This document shows, piece after piece, positions 11,359-33,492 of a stretch of 64,000 bases of DNA. The position numbers and the translations under genes are program-made. Positions within the stretch are counted from its first letter, which is position 1. Each line of letters starts with the position of its first letter. The notes below the pieces were generated by a model that worked only from the letters and a program-made list of their open reading frames with translations, was not told where the DNA came from and did no database searches. This stretch comes from Mycolicibacterium baixiangningiae (GTDB taxonomy: Bacteria > Actinomycetota > Actinomycetes > Mycobacteriales > Mycobacteriaceae): the NCBI RefSeq assembly GCF_016313185.1, contig NZ_CP066218.1, positions 3,162,001-3,226,000 of the forward strand. The letters are read 5' to 3'.

Positions 11359-11384
11359 CTGGTAGCCCGCCATATTCGATCCCG
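11359..11384. repeat. Dispersed repeat family 1, copy a (partial)
   Basis: The core GGTAGCCCGCCATATTCGAT matches the family described in the findings (other copies at 23212, 24411, 25602 and 29191). The left arm containing TTACYGGTAA is degenerate here. On the minus strand it reads SNMAGYQ within a 50-60-codon open stretch that may start with GTG near 11433. Confidence 0.55.
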
Positions 11385-11470
11385 CGACGAGCCCACTCAC
11401 CCCGGTCGGGGAGTTCGCGTTGGGGGTGTTCACGTCTGCTCCTGTCGAAATTTCGCTGGCACGGTGGCGT

Positions 11471-12439
11471 CTACGATCCGCCGTCGTCGACATCGGCGAC
11501 TCGCTGCGCTCCGCTGACGCGATATGGCGCCAGAAAGTCCTCGAGTGCGGCGAGCACCTCGGTGGGCGCTTCCTCGGCGGGGAAGTGTCCGCACCCGGCG
11601 ATGACGACGTGCGCGTGCACGTTGTCCGCAACCGGGTCCATGGTCGCGGCCACCACATCCCCGGTGGACCGCTCTCCGGCGATCGTCAACACCGGCAAGG
11701 ACAACCGCTGCTGTTTGCGCCGCGCGTTCTGCTCAATGGTGGTGCCGATCTCCTGGTAGGGAGCAAACCCCCCGTGCAGAGCGTCGCGCCCCGTGGTGAG
11801 CGCGGCCAAGTAGACCTCGATCACCTCTGGCGGCAGCGGGGTGGCCGCCTTGTGGGCGAACTGCCAGCCGAAGAACAAGCGTTCGCGGCCCTCGACGAGC
11901 TCCTCGCTCAAATCGGCCACCCGATTGAACCCCCAATGCCACAGTGCATTCGACCTGTCCTGAACTTCAGCGATTTCCGGGGCGGGGGTAAGGCCGGGAA
12001 CTGCGGCTTCGACGACGGTGAGGCACTCTATTCTGCCGGGGTGATCTGCGGCCAGCGCGTAGGCGATCCACATGCCCACGTCGTGTCCAACCACGGCGAA
12101 CCGTTCGTAGTGAAGCGCAGCCATGAGCTCGACCATGTCGTTGGCCAGGGTGGCGCTGTCATATCCGTCGAATGGCTTGTCGGACAGACCGCTACCTCGT
12201 CGATCGACGGCGACCACCGTGAAGTGTCGCGCCAAGGCGGGCATGACCAGGCGCCACGCATACCAGGTTTCGGGCCAGCCGTGCACTAGCAGCAGCGGCG
12301 GGCCGTTGCCACCCACGACGGCGTGTAGACGTAGCTCGCCGAGGTCGACCCAGCGGCTGGCGAAGACACTGTCGAAGCCGTCGGGGAGGCAGGGGGACCC
12401 GGAGGCGGTCCCGGCTCCGCTAGGTGCCGCATCGGACAT
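11471..12439 (-). CDS. Epoxide-hydrolase-like alpha/beta hydrolase
   Basis: Alpha/beta hydrolase of 322 residues. HGWPETWYAW is the oxyanion motif with the HGxP signature of epoxide hydrolases, and GHDVGMWIA places an aspartate (near residue 119) at the nucleophile position. These features favour an epoxide hydrolase or dehalogenase over an esterase. GCGHFPAEEAP near the C-terminus contains the catalytic histidine. A 280 bp gap separates it from the transporter operon, and the gene is probably its own transcription unit. Natural substrate unknown. Confidence 0.88.
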   Translation of the reverse strand: MSDAAPSGAGTASGSPCLPDGFDSVFASRWVDLGELRLHAVVGGNGPPLLLVHGWPETWYAWRLVMPALARHFTVVAVDRRGSGLSDKPFDGYDSATLANDMVELMAALHYERFAVVGHDVGMWIAYALAADHPGRIECLTVVEAAVPGLTPAPEIAEVQDRSNALWHWGFNRVADLSEELVEGRERLFFGWQFAHKAATPLPPEVIEVYLAALTTGRDALHGGFAPYQEIGTTIEQNARRKQQRLSLPVLTIAGERSTGDVVAATMDPVADNVHAHVVIAGCGHFPAEEAPTEVLAALEDFLAPYRVSGAQRVADVDDGGS

Positions 12440-12632
12440 GCGCGTGCTCCCTACCTATCCTCATCGGCCGACCGACCCGTCCCGCGGGCCGACGCGCCCA
12501 CCTCACCCAAGTTGCCGCGGGCACACCTACTGCGAGAACGTCGCAATGCGGTCGGGCCATGCCCCGAGCCCCGCGGCTTAAAGCCGTTGGCGTCAATTGG
12601 TTTCATCGAGCCCCCGAGGAATCCTTCGGACT

Positions 12633-12725
12633 CTACTTGCAACCGTTCGATATACATTTCTTGTACTTCCGGTCTCTCGACGAATCGTCGACGTACGCGG
12701 CGCCGTTGGTAAGCGTCGTGCTCAT
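12633..12725 (-). pseudogene. Truncated or small fifth ORF of the transporter operon
   Basis: An ATG at 12723-12725 overlaps the stop codon of the potC-like gene (ATGA), exactly like the other junctions in this operon, and opens a 30-codon frame starting MSTTLTNGAAYVDD and ending in TAG. The beginning looks like the N-terminus of a larger enzyme; the sequence after residue 14 looks random. I infer that a downstream operon gene was deleted, leaving its coupled start. A genuine small protein is the alternative. Confidence 0.4.
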
Positions 12726-13621
12726 CGCCCCACCATCGCGTCTGTCAGGCCGGCGGCCCCGCTGCCCGACCCCGCCGGATCCCGGCGCAGTACCAGGGCG
12801 ACGATGCCCAGCACGATCAGTGTGAGCACCAGCATCAACGTGGACATCGCTGCGATCTCCGGCCGCAGCGATGCCTTGAGCGACGCGAAAATGTACACCG
12901 GCCAGGGCGTCGACCCCGCGACGGAGACGAACGACGAGACAACCGTGTTGTCGAGACTGAGGGTGAAGGAAAGTAGCGCACCCGAGATGACCGCGGGTCG
13001 GATGAGGGGCAGCGTGATGTCGGTGAACCGACGGAAGGGCGGAGCGTACAGGTCGGCGGCGGCCTCTTCGAGGGTCTCGTTCATCCCGGACATCCGGGCC
13101 CGCACGATGAAAGTGACTACCGCGCTTGCGAAGAGGGAGTTGGCGATGATGAGGCGCACCTGACCGATGTTGAAGCCGGTGAAACCCCAGTCGACTCCCA
13201 GGGTGACAAACCAGGGGAGCAGCGAGATTGCACTGACGATCTCCGGAGTCACCATCACCAGCCCCAGCAACACAAGCAGGCCGGGTGCCCACCGGCCGGG
13301 TCGCCGGGTCAGCGCGATTCCGGCGAAGGTGCCGAGCAGGGTGGCTACCACCGCGGTGCCGGCGGCGGTGACCAACGAGACGACGATCGAGTTGGTGATC
13401 GCCGGATTGGTCAGGGCCGCGACGTAGGGCTGGATGCTGAATCCCTCGAACGTCTGCAGGGACCGGCCGGAGTTGAACGAGAAGACGACGATGACGGCGA
13501 TCGGGAAGAAGAGGAACAGCAGGCCAAGCATTCCCCAGACATTCAGGAAGGCGTCGGCGGGACGGATCTTGCGGCGACTGCGCCGCCGGGGGGAACCTGC
13601 GACCTGCGCCGTAACCGTCAT
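12722..13621 (-). CDS. potC: Polyamine-type ABC transporter permease (PotC-like)
   Basis: Inner-membrane permease of 299 residues with about six transmembrane segments. The first is near residues 32-55 (MLGLLFLFFPIAVIVVFSF). The cytoplasmic EAA-type loop ETLEEAAADLYAPPFRRF, which contacts the ATPase, is well conserved. It overlaps the second permease gene by four bases (ATGA). Together with the periplasmic-binding lipoprotein and ATPase upstream it forms a PotABCD-type importer. Polyamine or related amine uptake is inferred from family, not shown. Confidence 0.87.
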   Translation of the reverse strand: MTVTAQVAGSPRRRSRRKIRPADAFLNVWGMLGLLFLFFPIAVIVVFSFNSGRSLQTFEGFSIQPYVAALTNPAITNSIVVSLVTAAGTAVVATLLGTFAGIALTRRPGRWAPGLLVLLGLVMVTPEIVSAISLLPWFVTLGVDWGFTGFNIGQVRLIIANSLFASAVVTFIVRARMSGMNETLEEAAADLYAPPFRRFTDITLPLIRPAVISGALLSFTLSLDNTVVSSFVSVAGSTPWPVYIFASLKASLRPEIAAMSTLMLVLTLIVLGIVALVLRRDPAGSGSGAAGLTDAMVGR

Positions 13622-14541
13622 GAGAGTTCCTTCACCGAGAGTTTCAGGGATGTCATCGCGGTGGCGATACGACCGATCACTTTGAGGAGCACGCCGACCA
13701 CGGCACTCGTTCCGAAGATGGCCAGCATGAGCAACACTGCCATCGCCGCCCCAAGCGCCCAGTTTTGTGCGCTCTGGAACTGGGCGGCCACCATCTGACC
13801 GACCATGCTGCCGCTGGCCCCACCGAGAACGGTTGGGGTGATGTAGTCACCCATCAGCGGGACGAACACCAGCAGCAACCCGGCGGCCACCCCAGGTGCG
13901 GCCAACGGAACGGTGATGCGCCAGAGCGTGTCCCACGCCGTGGCACCGAGGTCGCGGCTGGCTTCGAGCAGCTTGGGGTCAAGACGCTCCAGCGCCACGT
14001 ACAAGGGCAGGATCATCAACGGCAGATAGTTGTAGACCACGCCGAGCTGAACGGCGGCCGAGGTGTACAGCACGTGTAGCGGCCCCTCGGTCAGGTTGGC
14101 CCATTGCAGCGTCTTCGATGCAAAACCCTCGGGACTCAGCGAGATTTGCCAACCGATGGTGCGGACGAGGAAGTTGGTCCAGTACGGGATGAGGACCAAT
14201 GCCAACACGATACCGCGCCATCTCGGCGCCAGCTTGACGGCCATCCAGTAGGCCATCGGAAACGAAATCAGCAGGCAGAGCACAGTTCCGGTCATCGCGA
14301 TCTTCAGCGTGCGAACGAAGATCGCAAAGAATGCGGGAGAGGCCGCCTCGCTGTATCGATCCAACGACAGGATGTCGTTGGCGTGGGTCACGTAGAGACC
14401 GGGTTTGTAGCCGAAGCTGTACCAGACCACGAGACCAAAAGGCATGATGAAGAACAGCAGTATCCACACGCTGATCGGCAGGGCCCCGAGTCCTCCTGGC
14501 AGCCTTCTCAAGGCCAGAAGCCGTCGCCGCGAGGCGGTCAC
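13618..14541 (-). CDS. potB: Polyamine-type ABC transporter permease (PotB-like)
   Basis: Permease of 307 residues with six predicted membrane helices. The N-terminal one contains LPISVWILLFFIMPFGLVVW, and the EAA loop is seen as LEASRDLGATAWDTLWRITV. It pairs with the PotC-like permease. Start and stop codons overlap both neighbours by four bases, so expression is tightly coupled. Substrate assignment follows the PotD-like binding protein and is inferred. Confidence 0.88.
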   Translation of the reverse strand: MTASRRRLLALRRLPGGLGALPISVWILLFFIMPFGLVVWYSFGYKPGLYVTHANDILSLDRYSEAASPAFFAIFVRTLKIAMTGTVLCLLISFPMAYWMAVKLAPRWRGIVLALVLIPYWTNFLVRTIGWQISLSPEGFASKTLQWANLTEGPLHVLYTSAAVQLGVVYNYLPLMILPLYVALERLDPKLLEASRDLGATAWDTLWRITVPLAAPGVAAGLLLVFVPLMGDYITPTVLGGASGSMVGQMVAAQFQSAQNWALGAAMAVLLMLAIFGTSAVVGVLLKVIGRIATAMTSLKLSVKELS

Positions 14542-15683
14542 TGGCCCGCCGCCGCCTTGAGCTCGTCGTAAATGGCGATGATCGTGCCGTCTGCCGATGT
14601 CATCTCGCTGTAGACCAACTTTTGCATGATGTCATCGCTGATGAACACCATGTCGGGTCGCTCGATGTCGGCTTCTTTGGCTGCTTCCTCGATTCCTTCG
14701 ATCCCGGTGTTGTAGCCGATGTAGCTGAGTTCCTTGAGCGAGACGGCTGGGTCGAGCACGTAGTTGATGAACTCGTATGCCGCGTCTTCGTGTGGTGCAC
14801 CGTTGACAATGGCCCAGTTGTCCTGCCAGAGGTTGGCACCCTCCGAGGGCCACACCCACTTGTACCTGTCGGGCTCAGCGTTGCCGAGGATGCCGAGGCG
14901 GGCATCGCCGTTCCAGCAGTGAATCAGGGCGCGTGCCGAAGACGAGATGGAGGCGTTGGTCGACGACTCGAACGCCTGCACGTGCGGAGCGATCTTCTCG
15001 AGGATGAAGGTACGGTAGGCCGCGATGTCGCCGGGGTCCGTGGTGTTGGGGGTGATCCCGTTGGCGTAGAAGTAGGTGAACGCGACCTCGGCCTGATCTT
15101 CCAGGAGCGACAGGCTTCCGGATGCCTCCTTCTGTGCGGCGTCGAAAAAGTCGACCCACGAGGTCAGGTCGCGCTTGATGACAGTGGTGTCGTAGACGTA
15201 GCCGGTCGAGCCCCAGTCCTTACAGACGCTGTACTTGTTGCCGGGGTCGAACGGGGTGTCGACGACTTTTGCGTTGAGGTTCTTCATGTTTGGCAGCCTG
15301 GCGAGATCGAGCTCGGTCAGCAGACCGCCGGTCGCCATCTGCTGGACGGACGAGTGGGTGGGCACACAGATGTCGTAACCTGTAGTGCCCTTCGCCGCAC
15401 TGAGTTTGGCGATCATTTCGGGATTCGAACCGTAGGAGTCGAGGGTGATCTTGGGGCCTTTGGCGGAGGTGAACTCCGCCAGCACGTCGGGGTCGTCGTA
15501 CTCACCCCAGGTGTAGATGTTCAGGCTGTCGGATGACGACCCGCCACCGCCCGACGAACTGGAGCAGGCGGCGAGAAAGGCGCCCACCCCGAGCGCAGCG
15601 GTCCCGCCCAGGAAGGTCCGGCGGTTGAGCGACTTCTTCATCGCTTCGGGAACGAGAATGCGAACGGGCTTTTGCTGATTCAT
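14538..15683 (-). CDS. potD: Polyamine-type ABC transporter substrate-binding lipoprotein (PotD-like)
   Basis: Extracytoplasmic binding protein of 381 residues. The N-terminus has a twin-arginine-like NRRTFLGG (near residue 20) followed by a hydrophobic segment and a lipobox LAAC, so it is probably a Tat-exported lipoprotein. After the serine/glycine linker, LNIYTWGEYDDPDVLAEF is the start of a PotD/PotF-type fold. Sequences such as GYDICVPTHSSVQQM and DNWAIVNGAPHEDAAYEF fit this family. It lies between the ATPase and the permease genes; spermidine/putrescine-like ligands are inferred. Confidence 0.9.
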   Translation of the reverse strand: MNQQKPVRILVPEAMKKSLNRRTFLGGTAALGVGAFLAACSSSSGGGGSSSDSLNIYTWGEYDDPDVLAEFTSAKGPKITLDSYGSNPEMIAKLSAAKGTTGYDICVPTHSSVQQMATGGLLTELDLARLPNMKNLNAKVVDTPFDPGNKYSVCKDWGSTGYVYDTTVIKRDLTSWVDFFDAAQKEASGSLSLLEDQAEVAFTYFYANGITPNTTDPGDIAAYRTFILEKIAPHVQAFESSTNASISSSARALIHCWNGDARLGILGNAEPDRYKWVWPSEGANLWQDNWAIVNGAPHEDAAYEFINYVLDPAVSLKELSYIGYNTGIEGIEEAAKEADIERPDMVFISDDIMQKLVYSEMTSADGTIIAIYDELKAAAGQ

Positions 15684-15730
15684 GCGTAGCTTCCAGGTCG
15701 AGGGGAGACGGTGGGCGGGGGAGCGAGCGG

Positions 15731-16888
15731 CTACGACGTGAAGATGCGCACGGCGTCAGCCGACCACGAACACGTCACGGTTGATCCGAGTTCGGTGGGC
15801 GGATTGGCGGCGCGGGGAAGACGAGCCAGGATTTGGTCGTCGCTGGGCGTGTGGATGACCAACTGCAGGCTGTGGCCGAGTTCTGAGACCCCGAGCAGCG
15901 TGCCGGTGACGGCGTTGACCGGGGCGTCTGACCCAGGGGCGGGGGCGCCGCGCAGCGCCGCAGCGGTGACCATCACCGACTCCGGCCTGATGGCCGCGGT
16001 GACCTCGGCGCCACCCGAGGCCGGCACGCTGCCCTTCGTCGGGCGCGACGAGTGCAGCGAAAGGCCCGCTGTGCGCACGCTCACCCCCGCGCTGTCGAAC
16101 GACGAGATGGTGCCAGGGAAGGAGTTCTGCCGGCCGATGAACCCCGCCACGAAGGCCGATTCCGGTGAATCGTAAACGGTTGAGGCCGTGCCGATCTGCT
16201 CGATCCGGCCGTCTTTCATCACCGCGACCCGATCACTCATCGACAGCGCTTCCTCCTGGTCGTGCGTGACGAAGATGAACGTCGTTCCGAGTTCGCGCTG
16301 CAGCAGTTTCAGTTCGACCTGCATCTCCTCGCGCAGTTTGCGGTCCAGGGCGCTCATCGGCTCATCCAGCAGCAGAACAGCCGGTCGGTTCACCAATGCC
16401 CGAGCCAGGGCGATCCGTTGCTGCTGGCCACCTGAGAGTTGCGCGGGCTTGCGGGCCGCGAAAGCGGTCATCCTCACCATGTCGAGGGCATGGCTCACCC
16501 GGTCGGCTATCTCTGCCTTCGCCACGCCGGAAAGGCGCAGTCCGTAGGCGACGTTGTCGGCGACTTTCATGTGCGGGAACAGCGCGTAGGCCTGGAACAC
16601 GGTGTTGACCGGGCGTTTGTGCGGCGGAAGGTTCTCGACGTTGCGGCCGGAAATCTGGATGGAGCCGTCGTCGGGAAATTCGAATCCGCCGATCAAGCGA
16701 AGCGTCGTCGTCTTGCCACACCCGCTCGGTCCCAGCAGGCTGAGGAACTCACCGGCCTGTACGGTGAGACTGACGTTGTCCACAGCAACGGCCGCACCGT
16801 AAACCTTGGTCAACGAACGTAATTGAAGCGAACCAGGTGCGGAGGCCAGCGGCGCGTCCGCGTCGGCGCGCCGCTCGACGATGCTCAT
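15731..16888 (-). CDS. potA: Polyamine-type ABC transporter ATP-binding protein (PotA-like)
   Basis: ATPase of 385 residues. Walker [10 protein letters not shown] is at 53-61, the signature LSGGQQQR and Walker [12 protein letters not shown] are intact, and [18 protein letters not shown] gives the H-loop. A C-terminal TOBE-like domain (about 260-385) is present, as in PotA. I start at 16888 ([11 protein letters not shown]) because this ATG overlaps the stop of the amidohydrolase gene (ATGA), as at other junctions in the operon; the longer reading begins in unrelated frame. It energises the two permeases downstream. Confidence 0.9.
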
Positions 16889-18536
16889 GCCGATACCAAG
16901 GTTGCGGTTGCGTCGTAGACGATCTCGCCGCCAATAATTGTGTAGATCACGCTGGCAGAGCCGATCTCGCAAACCGGAGCGGCGAAGATGTCGCGGTCGA
17001 GAATCACGATGTCGGCCGCCTTACCGACCTCGATGCTTCCCGAGCGCTGCTCGTCGTGGTTGAGGTAGGCCGTGCCGAGGCTGTGCGCGATCAGCGCGTC
17101 GGCCAGTGAAAGTGCCTGCTCGCCGAGGAAAGGCAGAGCTGCCGGGCCGGTCGCTCCGGCGGGGGCACGGTTGACGGCGGTGTGGATGATCTCCAGCGGA
17201 TTCGCCGTGCTCACCGGCCAGTCGCTTCCAGAAGCCAACAGCGCCCCGGCCCGCTGCAGGGAACCGAACGGGTACTGCCAGGCGGCTCGGCGGGTGCCGA
17301 GGAACGGGATGGTCAGAACGTCCATCTGGGCCTCATGCCTGGCCCAGAGCGGTTGCATGTTGGCGACCACTCCGAGTTGGGCGAACCGGGCGATATCGTC
17401 GGGGTGGATCACCTGAATGTGGGCAGAGTGTGCCGAAGATCGCTGTCGCCGTTGGCCGCGCGGGCCGCCTCGACCGCATCGAGGGACTCGCGCACGGCGC
17501 GGTCACCCAAGGCGTGATAGTGCAGCTGGAAGCCCAGGGCGTCGAGTTGGATCGAGATCTCTTTGAGCGTGGTCGGGTCGACGAAACTTTTGCCCATGTT
17601 TTCACCGGGGCAGCCGCACGTATCAAGATAGGGCTCGAGCATTCCGGCGGTGAAGTTTTCGGCGACGCCGTCCTGCATGATCTTGACCGTGGTGGCCGCG
17701 AACCCACCGGCCAGCGCGCGCTCGCGCTTTGCGACGAGCTCGGGAATCTGCTCGAGCCCACGGTTGCGGTCCCACCACAGTGCGCCGACGACGCGCGCCT
17801 TCAGCACGCCGGATGCGGTGGCACGCAGGTACGAGTCGAGCGGGTCGGGGGTGTCGTTCGTGGCACCGACGATGGCGTCTTGCCAGGCAGTCACCCCCCA
17901 GGAAAACAGTTGTTGCTGCGCAATTTTGAGCGCCTCATCCAAGTCGTGCTGGGTTGGCAGCGGAATGTGCCGGGCAACGAGGCCCATGGCGCCTTCCTGC
18001 AACGTCCCGATCGCGTGGCCGTCGGCGTCGCGTTCGATGCGACCGTCGAACGGGTCGGGCGTGGTGTCGTCGATTCCGCCGATTTCAAGGGCTTTCGTGT
18101 TGACCCAGGCGCCGTGCCCGTCGCGGTTGGGAAAGAACGCAGGCCGGTCAGCGACGATGGCGTCGAGCGCCGCCGCGGTCGGCAACCCGCCGGGAAATGA
18201 GTCCATCGACCAGCCGCCGCCGCTGATCCACGGCAGCTCAGGGCTGGCCGCCGCGTACTCGGCGATGCGCGTGAGGTAGCCCTCAGCGGTGACGTACGGC
18301 GTCAGGTCGCACGCGATCATGTCCAGACCGGCGTGATACGGGTGAATGTGGCTGTCTTGAAAGCCGGCGGAGACCAGGCCGCCGGCCGCATCGATCTCGA
18401 CGGCACCGGATGCAGTGAGCGCGTCTACACCGATAACGGTGATGACGCCGTCCTCGATCAGGACGGGTTCTTCGACGATTCCGGCGGGGGTGAAGACGTG
18501 CCCTCCGGTGATCAACATTCGTTCGCCGTTAGCCAT
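16885..18536 (-). pseudogene. YtcJ-like amidohydrolase (amidohydrolase family 3), frameshifted
   Basis: Metal-dependent amidohydrolase that would be about 550 residues. The N-terminal part (SAGFQDSHIHPYHAGLD, with the metal-binding H-x-H) runs to DLRHTL and then stops. The C-terminal part resumes one frame over with HPDDIARFAQLG and ends normally with [11 protein letters not shown]. Restoring one base in the run near 17421-17424 rejoins the two into a normal-length protein. It starts 4 bp after the XRE-cupin regulator gene and ends in a 4-base overlap with potA. Either a recent mutation or a sequencing error. The wild-type would probably hydrolyse an amide or carbamate linked to the transported compound. 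Confidence 0.8.
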
Positions 18537-18540
18537 GGTG

Positions 18541-19194
18541 TCATTCCTTAATCTGGTGTCCGGATGGCGCATCCAGCGGGTTCGTGTCGATCGGCAGGGT
18601 GAAATGCGATGTGATCCACATGGCCTGCGCCGGGGTTGCACCGATGTTGACGGCCCGGTGCGGAACCGACGAGAGGTACTCGACGCTGTCGCGTGGCCCG
18701 AGGATGAATCTCTCAGCAGCGACCGAGATTTCGATGTGCCCGCTGAGCACGTAGAACAACTCCTGCGCATCGTCGTGGGCGTACGCCTCGGGTCCGGTCG
18801 AGCCGCCCACCTCGAACGTGCCTTCATACACTTCGAGCTGGCGGATCGGTGGTCGCGAGAGCAGCAGCTTCCGCAGTCCGACGTCGCTGGTAAAAACGGG
18901 TCGCTCGTCCGCGCGCAGCACGGGTCGAGCGACGGGCGCCTCGTCGGCGAGCAGGTCGGCCACCGAGACGCCGACGGCCGCAGAAATGCGTTTCAGCACT
19001 CCCACGGATACTCCGCACTTGCCGTTCTCCAGCTGGCTGATGAAGCCTGCGCTCACCCCGGCCCGAGCCGCAGCATCCCGGGTGGACAGTCGGGCACGTT
19101 CGCGGGCCGCCCGGAGCCGAGCGCCGAGCATGGCTCGAGCCGGCCTGTCGATATCGGTCACGGCAATCGTGGGCTCAGGAAGCACGTGCCTCAT
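18541..19194 (-). CDS. XRE-family regulator with C-terminal cupin domain
   Basis: Regulator of 217 residues. An XRE helix-turn-helix (about 22-78) with LSTRDAAARAGVSAGFISQL and SVGVLKRISAAVGVSVADLL is followed by a cupin domain (about 120-200), seen in EAYAHDDAQELFYVLSGHIE and PHRAVNIGATPAQAMWI. The architecture is that of PuuR-type regulators of polyamine and amine catabolism. It is the first gene of the operon with the amidohydrolase and potA-D-B-C genes, which supports amine-responsive control (inference). Confidence 0.88.
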   Translation of the reverse strand: MRHVLPEPTIAVTDIDRPARAMLGARLRAARERARLSTRDAAARAGVSAGFISQLENGKCGVSVGVLKRISAAVGVSVADLLADEAPVARPVLRADERPVFTSDVGLRKLLLSRPPIRQLEVYEGTFEVGGSTGPEAYAHDDAQELFYVLSGHIEISVAAERFILGPRDSVEYLSSVPHRAVNIGATPAQAMWITSHFTLPIDTNPLDAPSGHQIKE

Positions 19195-19392
19195 TTCGCT
19201 AAGAGCTACTTAACAGATCGCTAACTGCGAAGGTATGGCCAGGGACGTCACGGTGCAAGAGGTGGCGCGCCGGAACGCAAACTGTTAACACCCCGGAAAT
19301 GCAGATTCGGTCACGCGGTAGTTGCTCGCAAATCCGTTGTGACATCGAATATTCGAAGCTCGTGGACGTTGCTTCGCGCATAATCACGGTTC

Positions 19393-19548
19393 ATGAAGTG
19401 CATAGTGATCGGTGCGGGCGCCTGGGGTTTGCCAACGGCGGCCGAAATGGCGCGCCGTGGTCACCAGGTCACCGTGGTGGATCGGCACGGTCCGCTCAAC
19501 ACACTGTCGTCGTCCAGTGGGCATCGTCGAGAGCTTCCACCAACGTGA
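19393..19548 (+). pseudogene. Truncated FAD-dependent amino-acid/sarcosine-oxidase-like gene
   Basis: A 51-codon ORF begins MKCIVIGAGAWGLPTAAEMA and continues into RGHQVTVVDRHGPLN and SSSSGH, an excellent FAD-binding N-terminus of the DadA/monomeric sarcosine-oxidase family, then ends at a stop. About 300 residues are missing. It is divergent from the transporter operon, so it may once have degraded the imported amine. Confidence 0.75.
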
Positions 19549-20114
19549 GGACGCGAGGGACCAGGCCGGCGTTGTTATGTCTTCCGCGCGAGCGATGAGG
19601 GCATAGTCTTCCGCGACCGTCGCCGGACTGGCGCAACCTGGAGACGGCGATCAGGGCGTGGTCCAGGGGAGTGTCCGCGTACTGAGACGACCGGACGTAG
19701 TAGCGCGCTGGTCCCTCCTTGCGGCGCTCAGCCCGGTCTTCGCCCGGGTGCTCGGCCCACTCCGGCCTGTAAAAGGAACCAGAGTCCGCTGCTCACAGAT
19801 CACGAGCGTGGGGTTCGCGTCACGCCAGCGGTGCAACTGGTGAGTCACATTGCACCCTGCGGCTTCCGCCGAGGCGGCCGCGCTGCGCGCCGGCTCACCT
19901 GTAAGGGGACTGCTAGGGTGAGTCGTGTTGCGCCACCGCAGACTTCGCTCCCGCGCGGTTCGCAAGGTTTTTGTTGGCCGCGGGTGACTTTCACCGGCAG
20001 AGTGGTGCGCGTCGTACATTCGTACATCTCTTGAATCATCAGAGATAAGGTGGCCCAACGCGGAGCATGGTGGACACCAGTCCGTGGGCACAACTTTTCA
20101 AAGGAAACCGCACA
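19549..20114. other. Gene-free stretch, probably decayed
   Basis: Between the truncated oxidase and the amine oxidase I find no frame with recognisable protein sequence. Sense reading gives short stretches interrupted by stops. The last ~90 bp hold the ribosome-binding site of the next gene. No RNA gene or repeat is seen. Confidence 0.5.
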
Positions 20115-21374: not shown

Positions 21375-21436
21375 CGCCCTGGCTTCATGATGACGTGCAG
21401 TCGCTAATGAAGAGGGTGGCCGGTGAGGACGAATAT

Positions 21437-23249: not shown

Positions 23250-23295
23250 CTCACATGCGCAGCACCGAAGCGGGTGAAAGATGACAGGGGAGAGG

Positions 23296-23313
23296 CGCTC
23301 ATCGAAAGTCCCC
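23296..23313. mobile_element. Relic of an IS21-type terminal sequence
   Basis: CGCTCATCGAAAGTCCCC matches the left end of the complete IS21 element at 25824 (CGCTCATCGAAATTCCCC) in 17 of 18 bases. No transposase gene is nearby, so this looks like the scar of an excised or deleted copy. Confidence 0.5.
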
Positions 23314-23345
23314 GGGGCAAGGCTCCCCGTCGAGGTTGATGACCC

Positions 23346-25621: not shown

Positions 25622-25647
25622 CCCGCCATATTCGATTTCGCCGTATT
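25584..25647. repeat. Dispersed repeat family 1, copy d (with 5' arm)
   Basis: The arm GGTGATTCATCAGTCGAAAA is followed by CTTTACTGGTAACCCGCC and ATATTCGATTTCGCCGTATTC. This arm aligns without gaps to copy e and to the solo arm at 33061. The minus strand reads SNMAGYQ then a stop. It overlaps the end of the esterase gene and lies about 170 bp left of the IS21 element. Confidence 0.75.
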
Positions 25648-25932
25648 CTCCGCCGAAACGGGGCTGGAACGTACGACCAGGCGCGGATCGTGCCGAGCTG
25701 TGAGTGCAGGCGGCCAGCACACCTCGATGTCCCTCCGTCACGTGTCGTGCCGAGTGGGCGGGATTTGCTGCTGACGGCGTGCAGGGGAGTGGGGTTGACC
25801 GCGCTCGTTGAATTTCCTCGCTGACGCTCATCGAAATTCCCCACCCGTGTGGCTCCGCCGAGAAGGGCGGGCCTCCCTCGATGCTGCTGGTGTCTGACGC
25901 CAGTAGCTCTGTCGAAGGAGGCCCGCTTTCTC

Positions 25933-27294
25933 ATGCTCACATGGGAGGACGACATGGAAGTACACGCCCTACGAAAACGCGGTTGGTCGATCTCTGCGAT
26001 CGCCCGCCACACCGGGTTCGACCGGAAAACGGTCCGCAAGTATCTGGCCGGCGGCGCCGAGCCCGGGGTGCGGGCACGGCCGGGACCGAATCCGTTTGAT
26101 CCGTTCGTCGACTACGTGTCGGCGCGATTGGTCGAGGACCCGCATCTGTGGGCCCGCACCCTCTACGACGAACTCGAAGACCTGGGTTTCGGGCTGTCGT
26201 ATCAGAGCCTGACCCGCAACATCCGCACCCGTAATCTGCGCCCGGACTGTCAAGCCTGCCGCACCGCCACCGACCGGCCCAACGCGGTTATCGAGCACCC
26301 GCCCGGTGACGAAACCCAGTGGGACTGGCTGGAATTGCCCGATCCGCCCGAGTTCTGGGGCTGGGGCAAGAAAGCTTTCCTGCTGGTCGGCTCGCTGGCG
26401 CACTCCGGCAAGTGGCGGGCGGTGTTGTCACCGTCGATGGATCAACCCCACCTGGTCGCCGCCATCGACACGATCTGCCGCGGCCTCGGCGGCCTCACCC
26501 GGGTCTGGCGGTTCGACCGGATGGCCACCGTCTGCGATCCGGGCTCGGGACGGGTGACCGCCACGTTCGCCGGGGTCGCCAAGCACTACGGCGTATCGGT
26601 GGCGATCTGCCCACCGCGGCGCGGTAACCGCAAAGGCGTGGTGGAGAAGGTCAATCACACCGCGGCGCAACGCTGGTGGCGCACCTTGGATGACGACATG
26701 ACCGTCGAACAAGCACAGGCAAGTGTGGACCGCTTCGCCCGGGTCCGTGGCGACACCAGGATGCGCTTGACCGCCGACGGGCGGTCTTCGGTGGCTGTGG
26801 TAGCCAAGACCGAGCCGCTCAGGCCAGTGCCGCCGGCGCCGTATCCGATGATCGTGTCTGAGTCCCGGACAGCCTCGCGGCAGGCGTTGGTGTCCTACCG
26901 CGGCAACCGGTACTCGGTGCCCCCGGAGCTGGCCGCCGCGCAGGTGAGGGTCAGCCATCCGATTGGTGGCGGGTACCTCGACGTCGCCACCACGAACGGG
27001 ATCGTGGTCGCCCGTCACCGGTTGGCCGCTGACGGGTTGGGGGTGATGGTCCGCGACAGCGGCCACGTCATCGCCCTCGACACCGCCGCAATGGCCACCG
27101 CCAACACCGGGCGACCACATCGCCGCAAGGAACGCATCCCACCCGGGCCGGCCGCCAAAACCGCTGCCGCGCAACTTCTTAACTTCCCCGACAACGCCAA
27201 CAGTGCCGTCGAATCCCCAACTAGCTCACCTGATTCCGCTGTCATTGACATGTCCGTCTACGAGCGGGCCGCCCAGAAAAGGACCCTGCAATGA
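25933..27294 (+). CDS. istA: IS21-family transposase IstA
   Basis: Transposase of 453 residues. An N-terminal helix-turn-helix (GWSISAIARHTGFDRKTVRK) is followed by an integrase-core (DDE) catalytic domain, with acidic residues in ETQWDWLEL, RVWRFDRMATV and KGVVEKVNH, and a C-terminal beta domain (YRGNRYSVPPELAAAQVRV). Start at 25933 is supported by AAGGAGG about 11 bp upstream and by the family-typical MLTWEDDMEV opening. It cuts and joins the ends of the element with help from IstB, whose gene overlaps by four bases. Confidence 0.93.
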   Translation: MLTWEDDMEVHALRKRGWSISAIARHTGFDRKTVRKYLAGGAEPGVRARPGPNPFDPFVDYVSARLVEDPHLWARTLYDELEDLGFGLSYQSLTRNIRTRNLRPDCQACRTATDRPNAVIEHPPGDETQWDWLELPDPPEFWGWGKKAFLLVGSLAHSGKWRAVLSPSMDQPHLVAAIDTICRGLGGLTRVWRFDRMATVCDPGSGRVTATFAGVAKHYGVSVAICPPRRGNRKGVVEKVNHTAAQRWWRTLDDDMTVEQAQASVDRFARVRGDTRMRLTADGRSSVAVVAKTEPLRPVPPAPYPMIVSESRTASRQALVSYRGNRYSVPPELAAAQVRVSHPIGGGYLDVATTNGIVVARHRLAADGLGVMVRDSGHVIALDTAAMATANTGRPHRRKERIPPGPAAKTAAAQLLNFPDNANSAVESPTSSPDSAVIDMSVYERAAQKRTLQ

Positions 27295-28148
27295 CCCCCA
27301 CCACCCGCACCCCCAAAACCACCACCCGCACCACCGATGCCGACTCGCCAACCGTGGCCGCGAGCCGCTATCAGCAACTGCGTTCACACCTGGCCGAGCT
27401 CAAACTCACCGCCGCCGCTGAAGCCCTGCCGGCCGTGCTCGACCAGGCGACCGCCGAGGGCCTGTCGCTCACGGTGGCCCTCGAGCGACTGTTGGCCGTA
27501 GAAGTCGATGCCAGCACCGCCCGCCGACTGGCGGGGCGGCTTAGGTTCGCGTGCCTACCCACACCGGCTAGCCTGGCCGATTTCGATGTCGACGCCGCCG
27601 CCGGTATCGACCGCGCACTCATCGACGAACTCGGCACCTGCCGCTACCTGGAGTCAGCAACCAACATTTTGCTCATCGGGCCGCCGGGGACAGGCAAGAC
27701 GCACCTGTCGGTCGGATTAGCAAGGGCTGCAGCATATGCCGGATATCGGACCTACTTCACCACTGCCGCCGATCTGGCCGCCCGGTGCCACCGGGCCGCC
27801 ATCGAAGGACGCTGGGCCACCACCATGCGGTTCTACGCCGGACCGACGCTCCTGGTGATCGATGAACTGGGCTATCTACCACTGCCAGCCGAGGCCGCTT
27901 CAGCACTGTTTCAGGTTGTGTCCCAACGCTATCTGAAGACCAGCATCGTGATGACCACCAACCGCGGGGTCGGCGCCTGGGGCGACATCCTCGGTGACAC
28001 CACTGTGGCCGCCGCCATGCTCGACCGACTCCTACACCGGTCTGTGGTCATCAACCTCGACGGCGAGTCCTACCGGCTACGCGACCACCACGCCGCCGCA
28101 GACACCCTGCGCCGAGCCACCACCGGCACCCGCCAACCACTACACTGA
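27291..28148 (+). CDS. istB: IS21-family helper ATPase IstB
   Basis: DnaA-like AAA+ ATPase of 285 residues that assists IstA in target selection. Walker A GPPGTGKTHL (near 126-135), Walker B LLVIDELGYLPL, and sensor region VMTTNRGVGAW are intact, and the N-terminal LKLTAAAEALPAVLDQA is typical. Its ATG overlaps the istA stop (ATGA), the usual coupled arrangement. Length is normal with a short basic N-terminal extension. Confidence 0.93.
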   Translation: MTPTTRTPKTTTRTTDADSPTVAASRYQQLRSHLAELKLTAAAEALPAVLDQATAEGLSLTVALERLLAVEVDASTARRLAGRLRFACLPTPASLADFDVDAAAGIDRALIDELGTCRYLESATNILLIGPPGTGKTHLSVGLARAAAYAGYRTYFTTAADLAARCHRAAIEGRWATTMRFYAGPTLLVIDELGYLPLPAEAASALFQVVSQRYLKTSIVMTTNRGVGAWGDILGDTTVAAAMLDRLLHRSVVINLDGESYRLRDHHAAADTLRRATTGTRQPLH

Positions 28149-28183
28149 CCGCACCTCACAGGTGGGGAATTTCGGCGAGCACA

Positions 28184-28487
28184 CCTGAGGACGTTCGACG
28201 AGCGCGATCAGGGTCGGGGAGGCGACGTCGCGCTGGCGCCGAGTGCCCGCGAATCTGCGCCAGTTATTCGGTGAGGTCTTGGGTTGGGGGTCGTAAGCAG
28301 CCGTTGGTGAAGGCGGGAAGCACTTCGGTGAAGGCGGGCAGCAGCCGTTGCCGCCGCCGACTACCGCCCGCTGCGGGGAGCACCCCTGTTCCCGCGAATG
28401 GTCGACGAACGCGGCAGTAACCACCGTTCCGGGAGTCTTTCTGGATCCCGTTGACGAATGCCGGCGGGGGATGGCCGGCCGAGCGGC
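28184..28487. other. Gene-free flank of the IS21 element
   Basis: No recognisable gene. A short tandem-like pair, GTGAAGGCGGGAAGCA and GTGAAGGCGGGCAGCA near 28300-28342, is the only visible structure. Probably the remains of the locus the IS entered. Confidence 0.4.
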
Positions 28488-28916
28488 CTATCGGTGAGAC
28501 AGCGCCCGGCGCACCACCCCGAGGCGTCGGGCCATCTTTGGCCCGAGCATCGCCGCGAACACGATGATGGCAAGCAACGGCCGTAGATGCGGCCGGAGTT
28601 GCCGGATCCGCCCGACCCCGTCGAGTTCAAACACCATCGCATCCGTAAACCGAATGCCGGCGATCTTGCCCTCGCTCACCGCGACCCGCACCGTGCCATC
28701 GCCCAGTGCATCGGTCCATTTCAGCTCGTGCAGGCTTCCGTATATCGCCGCCAACAAAACCCGCAGATCGTCTCGCCCTCGGAACACCATTCGGCCGGAT
28801 AACGGCGACACCAGTTCGGCGTCGGGAGCCAAGGTCGCGACCATCCCGTCTACGTCACATGCCTCCGACGCAATGCAGAATGCCGCCACCGAGTTAGTCG
28901 GCTCAAGTGAACCCAT
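28488..28916 (-). CDS. SnoaL/NTF2-like fold protein
   Basis: Protein of 142 residues with an NTF2-like (nuclear transport factor 2/SnoaL) fold. CDVDGMVATLAPDAELVSPL and the following RMVFRGRDDLRVLLAAIYG are the signature helix-sheet start, and FTDAMVFELDGVGRIRQLR the later strands. It ends with a basic tail including a hydrophobic stretch (LLAIIVFAAMLGPK). The ATG at 28914-28916 is preceded by GGAGG on the minus strand. Such proteins act as isomerases, cyclases or ligand binders; no specific role can be given. Confidence 0.75.
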   Translation of the reverse strand: MGSLEPTNSVAAFCIASEACDVDGMVATLAPDAELVSPLSGRMVFRGRDDLRVLLAAIYGSLHELKWTDALGDGTVRVAVSEGKIAGIRFTDAMVFELDGVGRIRQLRPHLRPLLAIIVFAAMLGPKMARRLGVVRRALSHR

Positions 28917-29398
28917 GGTTACCCTCCAGCGATTGCTGGCTCTCAGCCTAGCCGACGGCACACCGGGCCGTCTGCGGTGACGTCGGCGGTTGTTGGAGCC
29001 GAGCGAATCGAATTACGATCTACGTCTTGGACGGCCCCGCACTACCGTCGAACTACGGCGCCCCAACGGATAACTTTCTGTGCCAGTGGCTGATTCACTC
29101 GACTTAGCTCGAAGAAACGAAAGGCGAGGTCAGTCGCGCGACGTGAAACACGTTGAGATACTTCTGGTTTGGTGATCCATCAGATGAAAGCGGCGACGTT
29201 TACCGGTAAGCTTGCATATTCGATTCCGTCGTATTCGCCCCTCAACGTGAGCATGGGATTGACGTCATGCCCGCTTGAGCCTGCGAAGAATGCCGGGGCA
29301 GTCTTCCACTGCAGGCGTTATGAAAGGGTAGGCGAGGTGGTGTCAGGGTTGTTTCCTAAGCGTCTGCGGACCTTGGTGGCTCCGCATCTCTTCTAAGT
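28917..29398. other. Intergenic region with family-1 repeat e
   Basis: No gene is convincing. A 75-codon plus-strand frame (29169-29396) is just the repeat plus following sequence and has no ribosome-binding site. The region separates the NTF2-like gene from the P450 gene. Confidence 0.5.
29171..29236. repeat. Dispersed repeat family 1, copy e (with 5' arm)
   Basis: Reads GGTGATCCATCAGATGAAAG then CGGCGACGTTTACCGGTAAG and CTTGCATATTCGATTCCGTC GTATTC. TTACCGGTAA is a perfect palindrome. It matches copy d over the first 39 bases without gaps, with nine substitutions. The minus strand reads SNMQAYR then a stop. Confidence 0.72.
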
Positions 29399-30580
29399 CT
29401 AAGTGGTGAACCTAGCTGGAACGGTGAGTGGGCCGCGGATAGCGGGGGTGTCGCGCCAGACGGGGGTGCCGGCGAGGACTGGCCATCGCCCCAGGATGTG
29501 GTGCAGGGCTGCGGCGATTTCCAGTCGCGCTAGGCTCGCGCCGAGACAGTAGTGCGCGCCATGGCCGAAGGCGATGGGCGTCGGTCCGGACCGGCCGGAC
29601 TCATAGTGATCCGGGTGGTCGTAGACGTGGGGATCGCGGTTAGCCGCGGCCACACACACCAAAACGGGGTCACCACAGGCGATATCGACGCCGGCGAGGG
29701 TCTGATCGGCAGTGGCGGTGCGCGCGGTGGCTTGCACGGGGGAGTCCAGGCGCAACAGCTCGGTGACGACGTCGGCATCATTGGGGTCGATCCGGTCGGC
29801 TAGCCGTTCACCGGCGGGGCCCGGGGTGAGTAGCCGGATCAGGCTGGCACCGAGCAGGTTTGCGGTGGTTTCGTGGCCGGCTACCGCGATGAGGATTGCG
29901 GTGACAACGACCTCGTCGAGACTCAGGTTAGGGTCAGCGGCAAGGTAGCTCAGCAGGTCGTCGCCGGGGTGGCTACGGCGGTCGGCGGCGGCGGGCAGGA
30001 AGTCTGCGATCAGCACGGCCGAGGCCGCGAGGCCGGCTTCTAGCTCGTCGTCGTCGGCGAAGCCGCCCAGGAGCCGGATGATGGCGGGGGAGTGCTCGCG
30101 CAGCCCGGCGCACTGGTCGGTGTCCAGGCCCAGCCATGCGCCGATGACGGCAATCGGCAGCGGCAGCGCGATCTGGGACATGACGTCGAAGTCCTCGCCG
30201 ATGGCCACGTCGGCCACCGCCGAGGCGCAGATCGACTCGATACCATCGCTGAGTCCGGCGATGAAGGAGCGGGTGAACACATCACGGACCGCGCCCCGGA
30301 GTCGATCGTGGGATAGTCCGTCGGTGAACAGCATGCTGGCATCGACAAACTGGGGATTGAGAAACCTCAAAGCCTCACTGGCGGTTGGGTTGGCGCGCGG
30401 ATCGCTGATCCAGGCCGGCCCGGCCAACACCTCGCGAGCGGCGTGGTAGCCCAGCACCAGCCAAGCCTGCGCGGCGGGATCCCAGACCACGTCGCCGCGG
30501 CGGCGGCAGGCCTCGTAGAACGGGTAGGGGTCGGCGGCATCCCACGGCAGCCGCGCGGCCGTCGTGTCAGACGTGGTCAT
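29399..30580 (-). CDS. Cytochrome P450
   Basis: Heme monooxygenase of 393 residues. The I-helix motif AVAGHETTANLLGAS (near 230), the K-helix ExxR in TELLRLDSP (E-x-x-R), and the heme-binding FGHGAHYCLGASLAR (Cys near 345) are intact. The substrate-facing regions give no clue to the compound oxidised. The ATG at 30578-30580 lies inside the end of the ABC1-kinase gene (14 bp overlap), so the two are transcribed together. Electron donors are not in this window. Confidence 0.92.
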   Translation of the reverse strand: MTTSDTTAARLPWDAADPYPFYEACRRRGDVVWDPAAQAWLVLGYHAAREVLAGPAWISDPRANPTASEALRFLNPQFVDASMLFTDGLSHDRLRGAVRDVFTRSFIAGLSDGIESICASAVADVAIGEDFDVMSQIALPLPIAVIGAWLGLDTDQCAGLREHSPAIIRLLGGFADDDELEAGLAASAVLIADFLPAAADRRSHPGDDLLSYLAADPNLSLDEVVVTAILIAVAGHETTANLLGASLIRLLTPGPAGERLADRIDPNDADVVTELLRLDSPVQATARTATADQTLAGVDIACGDPVLVCVAAANRDPHVYDHPDHYESGRSGPTPIAFGHGAHYCLGASLARLEIAAALHHILGRWPVLAGTPVWRDTPAIRGPLTVPARFTT

Positions 30581-31982
30581 GGTGATCCAATGCCGACGGC
30601 AAGCCGCGTTCACGGACCCAGGCGTGGTGCAGCTTGCCGAGCTCAGTGGTCGGTTCGGCGACTCCGTCCATGTCGTCTGCCATTGCCCGTGCCGGCAACG
30701 TGGCACGCAGGCTGGCCAACACGCTGGCGATCGCGAGTTGGACGCGCGACAGGAACACGAAGTCGTCGGGTGTGTTCATGCGGGCAATCGGATGGTTAGC
30801 GTCCCGCACGTCGAATATGCCGCGAATGGCGCGGCGGGTCGCCTCAGGTGTGAACGTCACCGGCTGAGGCATCACGGCGGTCTCGTAGAGGAGTTCCGAC
30901 TGCCACTGATATAGCTCGTCGGCGGTGAGGTCGGAGTCGAACGGGACGAAGTCCATCTCTACCAGGAGGTTGCGTAGGTCCTCTTTGCGACCCTCGAAGA
31001 CGGCGCGGACCATCGCGATCAGTCGCCAGCGCTGTGGCTCGGGCAGGACCTTCACGCAGCCGAAGTCGAGGAATCCGACGGTGCCGTCGGAGTTGAGACG
31101 GTAGTTGCCTGGGTGGGGGTCGGCATGCAACAGGTTGGCATGCCGGTAGCTGCCCCAGCAGAACCGCGCAATAGCTTCGGCCCAAGTATTTCTCAGGTCC
31201 TGATCGGCCTGTTGGGCAGCCGCCCAGTCCATTCCGTCGAGGAAGGTCATCGTCAGCACCCGGTCACCGGAGGCTTCAGGAATGACATCGGGGATTCGGA
31301 TGAACGGGTGACCTCGGTAAAGCTCACTGAAGGCCGCGATCATGGCCGCTTCGTGCCGATAGTCCACCTCTTCGGAGATCCGCGCCGCCGCCTCGCGCGC
31401 TACGGCCCGAACGTCGGCCGTCATCCCCGACGCCGACGTGGCGAACCGCAGAAACGTCGTCAACAGCTCGGTATTAGCCAGATCCTCGCGGATGGCTTGG
31501 GCCACACCGGGATACTGAATCTTGACGGCAACCTGGCGACCATCGCGCAGGAGGGCGCGGTGGACCTGACCGATCGATGCGGCGGCCATCGCCGTTTCAT
31601 CGAACTCGGCGAATTGCTCGACGGCGGAGCCGAGTTCGGCGTTAAGGACTTCACGTACCAATGCGGGATGCATCGGTGAAGCGTCGGCCTGCAGTCGGTT
31701 CATGGCCTTTTGGTAGGGCGAGAACCCGCCTGTGCCGAGTGCGCTGGCATCGATCATCGACATGATCTGCCCGACCTTCATCAACGCGCCCTTGGAGTGG
31801 CCGAGCAGCTCGGCATAGTGGTCGGCGGTGCGTTCGTGGAAGCGCTCGACGGCACCGTCGCTACCGGCCCTTTCCCGCAGGCCAGCGACGAGTCGACCGC
31901 CGGCAGCCCTGGCTGTGAACCCGGCCAGCGGCATCGTGCGACGGATCCGCCCACGCGGCACAGGCCTGTCTTGCTGCGGCAT
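30567..31982 (-). CDS. ABC1/AarF (UbiB-like) atypical kinase
   Basis: Protein of 471 residues in the ABC1/UbiB atypical kinase family. The family signature KGALMKVGQIMSM (KxGQ motif, about residues 62-74), a lysine in VAVKIQYPGV, and LHADPHPGNYRLNSDGTVGFLDFG (catalytic and metal-binding loop) are all visible. Start at 31982 (MPQQDRPVPRG) has GGGAG just upstream. It is divergent from a TetR gene with a 12-bp palindrome between them, and its stop overlaps the P450 start, so they form a regulated unit. Family members act in lipid or quinone metabolism; the role here is unclear. Confidence 0.88.
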   Translation of the reverse strand: MPQQDRPVPRGRIRRTMPLAGFTARAAGGRLVAGLRERAGSDGAVERFHERTADHYAELLGHSKGALMKVGQIMSMIDASALGTGGFSPYQKAMNRLQADASPMHPALVREVLNAELGSAVEQFAEFDETAMAAASIGQVHRALLRDGRQVAVKIQYPGVAQAIREDLANTELLTTFLRFATSASGMTADVRAVAREAAARISEEVDYRHEAAMIAAFSELYRGHPFIRIPDVIPEASGDRVLTMTFLDGMDWAAAQQADQDLRNTWAEAIARFCWGSYRHANLLHADPHPGNYRLNSDGTVGFLDFGCVKVLPEPQRWRLIAMVRAVFEGRKEDLRNLLVEMDFVPFDSDLTADELYQWQSELLYETAVMPQPVTFTPEATRRAIRGIFDVRDANHPIARMNTPDDFVFLSRVQLAIASVLASLRATLPARAMADDMDGVAEPTTELGKLHHAWVRERGLPSALDHHDHV

Positions 31983-32035
31983 CGAATCACTCCCACTCGA
32001 TCGGACGTGTAGTAAAGTGAACTCGTACAGAGGAT

Positions 32036-32047
32036 AAGTGATCACTT
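32036..32047. promoter_or_regulatory. Likely TetR operator between divergent genes
   Basis: AAGTGATCACTT is a perfect 12-bp palindrome located 54 bp upstream of the ABC1-kinase start and 15 bp upstream of the TetR start. Size and position suit autoregulation by the TetR protein. Confidence 0.6.
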
Positions 32048-32061
32048 GCGAGAGGTCAATC

Positions 32062-32661
32062 ATGACAGCGGCCCCCACGCGCGAACGGCTCGTGACCGAG
32101 GCGATGCGGTTGTTCAGCACCAAGGGATTCGAAGCGACCAGCGTTTCCCAGATTGAAGCCGCGGCCGGACTCTCGCCCGGGTCGGGAGCCCTCTACCGCC
32201 ATTTCGAATCCAAGGAAGCCCTCTTGGGCGCTGGCATCGACCGGCAACTCGATCGCAGACGCGCCATGCACGACATCCGGACACTGTTCGCGGGCCTGGA
32301 TGACCTACGCGCGGAATTGACCGTGCTCGGCCGCTACCTGCTCACCGTTATCGACCAAGAGCTCGAGCTGCTCCAGATCGCCGCCCGCACCCCCGCCGGC
32401 CTGTCGCCCCGACTCGACACGGCCTACGGCGCCCTCATCGACGGCCTGACCGCCGAACTCGCCGACTGGATCCGCGCGTGGGGACCGACACTGAAGAAGC
32501 GGCACTGCGTGGTGTTGGCCGCATTGGGAGTCAACGGCATCCTTGGCGCTCGCTTCGCAACCGGTCTGTTCCGCGAACCGGCTACTCACTTCCCCGACGA
32601 TGAATACCTCAACGAATGGACAGCAGTCCTTGCCGCCCGCATCGAAGCTCATCAGACATGA
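32062..32661 (+). CDS. TetR-family transcriptional regulator
   Basis: Regulator of 199 residues. The N-terminal HTH has RLVTEAMRLFSTKGFEATSV and the recognition helix in GSGALYRHFESKEALL. The C-terminal ligand domain contains IAARTPAGLSPRLDTAYG. ATG at 32062 has AGAGG 7 bp upstream and I prefer it to the earlier in-frame start at 32038. It is divergent from the ABC1-kinase/P450 pair and probably represses it. Confidence 0.87.
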   Translation: MTAAPTRERLVTEAMRLFSTKGFEATSVSQIEAAAGLSPGSGALYRHFESKEALLGAGIDRQLDRRRAMHDIRTLFAGLDDLRAELTVLGRYLLTVIDQELELLQIAARTPAGLSPRLDTAYGALIDGLTAELADWIRAWGPTLKKRHCVVLAALGVNGILGARFATGLFREPATHFPDDEYLNEWTAVLAARIEAHQT

Positions 32662-33492
32662 TCCAGCGAGATACCTCGACTCCCGCCCCGCGCCTCTTCA
32701 AGCTATCGGCCCCCCGTGGGGGAGCGGCGCTATTGGGCCCGCCCGGCGATGGATACCGTGGCACCCTTGACTTTCTGTGCAACACCGATTGATTCACCTG
32801 ATGAATCAACAGACACTGGCTTTGATCGCGAACTGCGTCGTCATCTAGTCGTGAAGTCGAGCGTCATTGCGTGCGCCGTGCCGCCCCTGTTGATCGTGAA
32901 TGCGAGCGTCACTTCGGTCCTCTGGCAGGTAGGGCCTCACCTGTGAATGACCCCCGTCGAAGCGGGATCGCTCCGTTAGCTCAGGGGAATTGCGCGAGGC
33001 TATCGCAGCCTTCGCACGTTGATATAGCCGGTGAAGCTTGTCGTCGGCGGTTGGTTGGGAGATGATTCATCTGATGAAAACGGGGACGTTTAGTTGACAT
33101 AATGTGGGTTATCGGCAAGTAGCCAATGCGAGTTGCATTAGGTGCAAGGACTCGCACCTCTGCGTGATAACAACGTTGGCGCAGCTGACAAGCTTGACCC
33201 CTCCGGTTTCTATCCACCGACCGGCAAGGCGTGTCATCTGTTAATCGTCGCCCCAGCTTGAACTAGATTTCAATCACTTAATGAACGATTTCGTTGTTCT
33301 GTGACGAGATGTCGATGCTGGTTTACTCAGGCCCACCCGGCAAGGCCGCGCCCGGCTGCCCTCCGTCCGCCAACAGCCCGCGAAAACGTCACAGTGACGA
33401 ATTAATATGTCCCGCTAGGTCATTGCCCATTCCCTGGTCAACGTCCCGGGCGGCACCCACGTGGTTGAGCCGACTATCAGACGGAGTCAGCG
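32662..33492. other. Long gene-free region with palindromic motifs
   Basis: No protein family is recognised in any frame over about 830 bp. It holds TTGATTCACCTGATGAATCAA (32786-32806) and the solo family-1 arm GATGATTCATCTGATGAAAA at 33061. A pair of similar blocks, GAGCGTCATTGCGTGCGC and GAGCGTCACTTCGGTC near 32860-32920, suggests an internal duplication. Probably degraded sequence bordering the integrase fragment. Confidence 0.5.
33061..33095. repeat. Family-1 repeat, solo 5' arm (copy f)
   Basis: GATGATTCATCTGATGAAAA then CGGGGACGTTTAG aligns to the first half of copies d and e; TTCATCTGATGAA is a perfect palindrome. The rest of the family core is missing, as if cut at the TTTA position. 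Confidence 0.55.

Follow-up and report, generated by a model that had tools for sequence, protein, structure and literature searches.

What the short repeats dispersed through one part of a Mycolicibacterium baixiangningiae genome mark is the question that this locus raises. The window, by which we mean the whole 64,000-nucleotide stretch that was analysed, holds five copies (a to e) and what had looked like a lone arm (f), and the first-pass annotation offered three readings: the ends of a small mobile element, the operators of a regulator, or the tail of a decayed gene family. Inspection of the sequence confirmed copies a to e at their positions, all on the + strand, and a profile refined on relatives scored them at 25.8, 34.8, 59.0, 59.7 and 45.0 bits, respectively, while the best score in 50 dinucleotide shuffles of the window was 9.5 bits. 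Searching the source genome with the neighbourhood of copy d returned d, c, e, b and a as the top five matches (E 5e-47 to 0.006), all less than 22 kb from dif and on the same side of it; the sixth match had an E value of only 0.16. These are not the only copies: with up to three candidates scored per genome, the repeat was matched in 138 of 297 sampled genomes of the genus (E <= 0.01) and absent from 159, and many genomes had two or three matches a few kilobases apart in the same orientation. Phage records gave no match to the repeat, an Rfam search of the window gave nothing at the gathering score for it, and a tRNA search of the window found none. The window also contains a 102-bp direct repeat, 87% identical between 39790-39891 and 54750-54851, which lies outside this family.

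The site dif, at which chromosome dimers are resolved and duplicated chromosomes separate, is the anchor of the array. Copy f is the left half of the repeat only, followed by dif (AGTTGACATAATGTGGGTTATCGGCAAG, 33092-33119, + strand), which comprises the XerD arm AGTTGACATAA (33092-33102), the centre TGTGGG (33103-33108) and the XerC arm TTATCGGCAAG (33109-33119). This dif has no second match in the genome when as many as three mismatches are allowed, lies at 3.195 of 6.18 Mb, close to where the window's cumulative GC skew levels off, and has a match in 257 of the 297 genus genomes; the Frankia alni dif printed in the available part of PMC3025954 matches its reverse complement. A full copy of the repeat joins the right end (RE) of one unit to the left end (LE) of its successor, so that the inserting DNA is the stretch between the copies and the copies themselves are joints. 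Copy f, described earlier as a solo arm, is actually the RE of the last unit (TGATTCATCTGATGAAAACGGGGACGTT, 33063-33090), one base from dif, and the same RE type stands before dif in relatives: a recognised RE directly precedes dif in 41 of 61 distinct dif contexts (20 of class I, 20 of class II and 1 of class III). Among the three readings, the ends of a small mobile element came nearest, but each repeat is a joint of two insertions anchored on dif.

The LE reads TACTGGTAACC and then a direct repeat, CGCCRTATTC or CTGCATATTC, with about 15 bp between its copies, the forms that follow TACTGGTAACC being CGCCRTATTCGATTCCGCCGTATTC or CTGCATATTCGATTCCTGCATATTC. The RE is mostly TGATTCATC-N-GATG...AATACGGCG or ATGCAG...TT; class I has TTCATC-N-GATGAA...ACGGCGTACTT, class II has GCAATACGGCG or GCAATATGCAG...TT, and class III is a form with TTCGCA-N5-TGCGAA. 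The minus-strand peptide (S/L)N(M/I)AGYQ, which the first-pass annotation pointed out, is a by-product of this conserved DNA, and the idea of a coding tail was dropped because unrelated genes flank the joints.

All features of the array in the window are on the + strand. Nearest to dif is a unit of 3,890 bp (29201-33090), which begins at joint e (29173-29237; RE 29173-29200, LE 29201-29237) and carries, by Pfam, genes for a P450 (-), an ABC1 kinase-like protein (-) and a TetR protein (+). The unit from d to e (25613-29200, 3,588 bp) starts at joint d (25585-25649; RE 25585-25612, LE 25613-25649) and holds an IS21-family insertion that has inverted repeats of its own (25796-28210; istA 25849-27294, istB 27291-28148). 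Next to it, the unit from c to d (24421-25612, 1,192 bp) begins at joint c (24403-24457; RE 24403-24420, degenerate in its outer part, and LE 24421-24457) and contains an Abhydrolase_3 gene (24620-25621). This reading frame crosses the RE of joint d and ends in the LE of the following unit, which supplies its stop codon, the TAA of GGTAACC; the insertion may thus have altered the protein's C-terminus. Copy d is thereby an exception to the earlier placement of the copies in intergenic scars. The unit from b to c (23214-24420, 1,207 bp) carries a metallo-beta-lactamase-fold gene (23551-24312), and joint b (23214-23250) is an LE with no recognisable RE. The stretch from a to b (11357-23213, 11,857 bp), with genes for an alpha/beta hydrolase, an ABC transporter, an amidohydrolase and an amine oxidase, could be one large unit, as we infer, or several with lost joints. 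Joint a (11357-11385), a weak LE without an RE, presumably marks the first insertion.

Across the fetched loci, the units are discrete and exchangeable and have a common site. The 133 units include 34 pairs whose homology covers at least 80% of each member, and none of these 34 has a match of 100 bp or more in either of its 600-bp flanks. With unrelated flanks on both sides of every recurrent pair, an operator set and the tail of a decayed gene family are both poor fits. In the 45 fetched single-dif loci, each of the 91 joints that score at least 30 points the same way as dif and sits on the side of its XerD arm; the sequence examined for this count came to 781 kb on the RE side but just 137 kb on the opposite one. 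Since the loci were picked mostly for repeat matches or dif, frequencies within them are not population frequencies.

The site and dif are less than 20 kb apart in 23 of the 28 genomes that have both on one large contig (counted by hand, among the matches listed, on contigs C1 or C2). They are more than 20 kb apart in G087, G151, G229, G241 and G260, and on different contigs in G203 and G227. Some of the distant sites relate to other dif-like sites: the left flank of L126 resembles that of the dif-like site of L129, and in L128 and L136 degenerate dif-like sites lie further to the right. Plasmid-like or degenerate dif sites (e.g., TTGACATAATCTCGGTTATCGGC), seen in L129 (near 355), L128 (oriented 16207), L313 and L314, also take units or have left flanks common to unit-bearing sites.

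Insertion at dif leaves dif whole, as seen by comparing dif contexts, an empty and an occupied site, and one element at several sites. The dif of genome G092 is empty, and G088 has 18.7 kb inserted before its own dif; their common flank is 98.2% identical across 6,968 bp and reaches the dif edge. In the L215 genome (Mycobacterium sp. MBM), two contigs that carry different dif-like sites start with one and the same 77-bp RE, and two contigs that differ in their left flank finish with one and the same LE, which by sequence comparison is one element integrated at two dif-like sites; the L214 genome (M. llatzerense) has this element at a further dif-like site. The four bases from RE to TGAC are GAGT, AGGT and AGGT at the three sites and therefore belong to the target. 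The target duplications that the first-pass annotation proposed to look for were not visible beyond one or two bases, either in the G088/G092 pair, where one or two duplicated bases are possible, or at the three dif-like sites. Seven stand-alone contigs from seven assemblies, three of them the same element, extend, give or take a few bases, from the edge of an RE to that of an LE and amount to one unit each. They gave a first impression of excised circles; the L215 genome instead has two integrated copies, and for this reason such contigs are no proof of circles.

The crossover point can be read from the bases next to the core. In a set of 136 joints scoring at least 25 bits, base -4 is T in 32 of 34 class I joints, as compared to T in 11, A in 7 and G in 2 of the 20 class I dif contexts, while the bases from -5 leftwards are alike in joints and dif contexts. 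Positions -4 to -1 follow the LE or dif, and the crossover therefore falls between -5 and -4 of TGACATAA, beyond the 11 bp of the XerD arm. Unit pairs agree with this placement: the similarity between L109 and L183 starts at -4 at the left end and stops at -5 at the right, and L111 and L118, with 98.2% identity along 11.5 kb, have left flanks that are unrelated. Histograms of HSP ends mark the right end of the joint and cannot place the crossover, because the core is common to all joints. Within units, the arm types of LE and RE (TGCA or CGCC) agree, with a TGCA RE in 10 of 21 units with a TGCA LE versus 9 of 73 with a CGCC LE (39 of 133 dropped as untyped; p 0.001, a rough value because related sequences are not independent). 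Across joints there is no such agreement (3 of 15 versus 11 of 62, p 1; 56 dropped). Agreement within units only is expected if a unit's LE and RE are processed jointly, as they would be in a circle.

A candidate for the enzyme adjoins dif. In 10 of 54 fetched dif-bearing loci, a tyrosine recombinase gene (int, product Int) is found within 600 bp of dif on the RE side, and the remaining 44 have no such Int adjoining dif. Int reads away from dif and is followed by an HTH_26 protein of about 115 aa and then by a Cys-rich protein of about 440-530 aa. It matches PF00589 above the cut-off, and residues R186, K219, H293-x-x-R296, H319 and Y328 of the L111 Int, which we take to be catalytic, are invariant in 15 relatives. 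Its matches to the XerC/D models are far below their cut-offs, and against the integron integrase model TIGR02249 the L111 Int scores 39.2 bits and two others 46.3 and 37.6 (cut-off 265); relatives by sequence with solved structures include XerD, IntI4, XerA and XerH.

The linkage extends well beyond the genus. In a scan of one genome per species, the best 80 of 325 Int relatives were kept, from Mycobacterium, Rhodococcus, Nocardia, Gordonia, Amycolatopsis, Arthrobacter, Nocardioides, Cellulomonas and others. Of these 80 loci, 57 have a dif-like site (16 positions, at most 3 of them mismatched) upstream of Int at a distance of 262-483 bp, which is 262-306 bp in 55; 13 of the 70 loci with at least 330 bp upstream have no dif-like site there, and four further dif-like matches occur elsewhere in the loci. 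An RE follows dif in most loci with the upstream site, the three-gene operon is complete in 70 of the 73 loci with room for it, and LE sites are present behind the operon in 34 of the 80 loci, 41 of 42 on the expected strand. At 3,294 bp, L219 is the smallest unit and consists of just the Int, HTH and Cys-rich genes. Int is tied to dif by position only, and a catalytic role is probable.

The Cys-rich partner has no match in Pfam, NCBIfam or PHROGs and nothing convincing among solved structures (sole match E 0.19), and its predicted structure is of low confidence (pLDDT 66, pTM 0.40). A profile comparison aligned it colinearly with the catalytic domain of Int at E 0.17, and because this is not significant, calling it a degenerate recombinase is a mere guess. 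The source genome contains no close Int, its best own integrase being 24.6% identical, and the array may therefore be a relic or depend on visiting elements. Inside the insertion of G088, an Int-family member split over two frames (L121, 6842-8768) reads as an earlier unit since displaced from dif.

On the XerC side of dif, the window has two further features. One is an imperfect palindrome, AATGCGAGTTGCATTAGGTGCAAGGACTCGCACC (33122-33160), present in 24 of 144 distinct dif contexts; the other, at 33469-33660, is what remains of an Int N-terminus, which points away from dif and shares 48.6% identity with the L111 Int over 35 aa. Perhaps a mirror-image family exists there. In genome G172, the XerC side of dif has another kind of tyrosine recombinase (L184, 15898-17130), which shares 24.7% identity with Int over 219 aa and likewise points away from dif.

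Units of up to 6 kb encode 183 distinct proteins in 121 clusters, 123 of the proteins being on the joint's strand (genes in fetched loci were called with a simple codon-usage script). Toxin-antitoxin-type families were matched by 13 of 20 hand-picked, mostly recurrent, unit proteins: PIN (5), PemK/MazF (2), Phd/YefM (2, one of them below the Pfam cut-off), RHH (1), Zeta (1), ParD-like (1) and ParE (1). The L111 unit encodes ApeA-HEPN and NACHT proteins, which suggests defence. In the window, the cargo consists of the metallo-beta-lactamase-fold protein, the Abhydrolase_3 protein, the IS21-family insertion and the P450/ABC1/TetR group.

The repeats are most probably the joints of a dif-anchored integrative system, with the XerC/D-like Int as the likely catalyst and int-less units probably acted on in trans. 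RE and LE would meet in a circular form of the unit, and conservative recombination of RE-LE with the outer edge of dif's XerD arm would insert the unit in a single orientation, leaving dif whole, presumably still functional, and with a new RE beside it. Repeated insertion would then build a tandem array on one side of dif, its inner joints being RE+LE. Int, encoded with the HTH and Cys-rich proteins at the RE end of larger units, would catalyse these steps, and units without int, like those in the window, would probably be moved in trans. The system probably consists of dif-targeting integrative elements plus integrase-less cassettes that they serve in trans.

Host XerC and XerD could instead integrate the units at dif, as in IMEX and dif/pdif modules, the Int operon being a mere passenger. 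This is consistent with a target that is dif on chromosomes and at plasmid-like sites, with small units that lack a recombinase, with the Xer-like relatives of Int, and with genomes G147 and G155, which have the site yet only two tyrosine recombinases each. We nevertheless consider it unlikely: Xer recombinases cut at the central region of dif, whereas the crossover here falls beyond dif, at the XerD arm's outer edge, and Int keeps a fixed position beside dif across many genera (best 80 of 325 relatives). The joints also contain no dif copy, whereas IMEX carry a dif mimic according to the available part of PMC9765430. A DDE transposase such as the IstA of the window's IS21 is a very improbable inserter of units beside dif; a rough inverted repeat is common to LE and RE when compared by eye and IS21-type genes occur in a few arrays, but no target duplication extends beyond one or two bases, the window's IS21 lies inside unit d-e, and no transposase recurs beside dif among the loci listed. 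IS21 was rejected as the mover on its own inverted repeats and its occurrence in either orientation in arrays. There is hardly any chance that the repeats are regulatory or structural terminus DNA (operators, FtsK- or terminus-protein sites) with incidental genes. Their palindromic pieces, single orientation and terminus location would suit such a role, but the reading is contradicted as the main one by whole units that swap neighbours precisely at joints, by RE and LE found apart at dif and at unit edges, and by the absence of joints from 159 of 297 genomes (E <= 0.01), even if a bound protein at the joints could still exist.

For mycobacteria and other Actinobacteria, the dif-anchored system maps a gene-gain hot spot at the replication terminus. 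Units insert at dif and keep it whole, by a route that seems unlike Xer hijacking, and insertion on one side of dif would account for the toxin-antitoxin and defence genes gathered at the terminus. Because the ends, the target and the candidate enzyme are defined to the base, gene capture is directly testable, and the unit ends can be used for finding such cargo. In a broader interpretation, for and against which our judgement is evenly balanced, Actinobacteria would possess a separately arisen integron-like gene-capture platform anchored on dif, in which a dedicated recombinase and two partners insert at the XerD-arm edge and integrase-less cassettes are captured, stacked and traded in trans between chromosomal and plasmid dif sites, perhaps coupled to FtsK/Xer at cell division. 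A literature search through titles and abstract openings, mostly open-access and without bioRxiv preprints, found no description of such a dif-edge system among the entries listed.

Among known systems, the array works like an integron and resembles IMEX in its target, and it fails a defining test of each. Integrons share the arrays of small units, the many toxin-antitoxin genes, the single orientation, the anchor site and a Xer-related recombinase; however, the Int found here scores far below the integron-integrase cut-off (39 versus 265 bits), the anchor is dif and the int operon travels on units. The identity of the joints as integron attC was rejected, since attC boxes (RYYYAAC...GTTRRRY) occur in 0 of 140 joints on either strand and the 60 of 140 joints that were folded have no folding excess (DNA-fold z -0.31 for the top and -0.61 for the bottom strand, genomic control -0.59). 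IMEX, as portrayed in the accessible text of PMC9765430, likewise integrate at dif and keep it whole, whereas here the unit holds no dif mimic, the crossover is outside dif and a dedicated recombinase is linked. Genomic islands that bear a Xer-like "simple" tyrosine recombinase are likewise mobile elements with site-specific insertion, and are set apart by their description, as the accessible portion of PMC8138268 describes neither a dif-edge target nor an Int-HTH-Cys operon. The dif/pdif modules of Acinetobacter, in the part of PMC12907356 available, are similar in that their gene units form modular arrays linked to Xer sites, both chromosomal and plasmid-borne; dif-like sites flank each of those modules, whereas the joints described here are RE+LE and dif is touched only by the end of the array.
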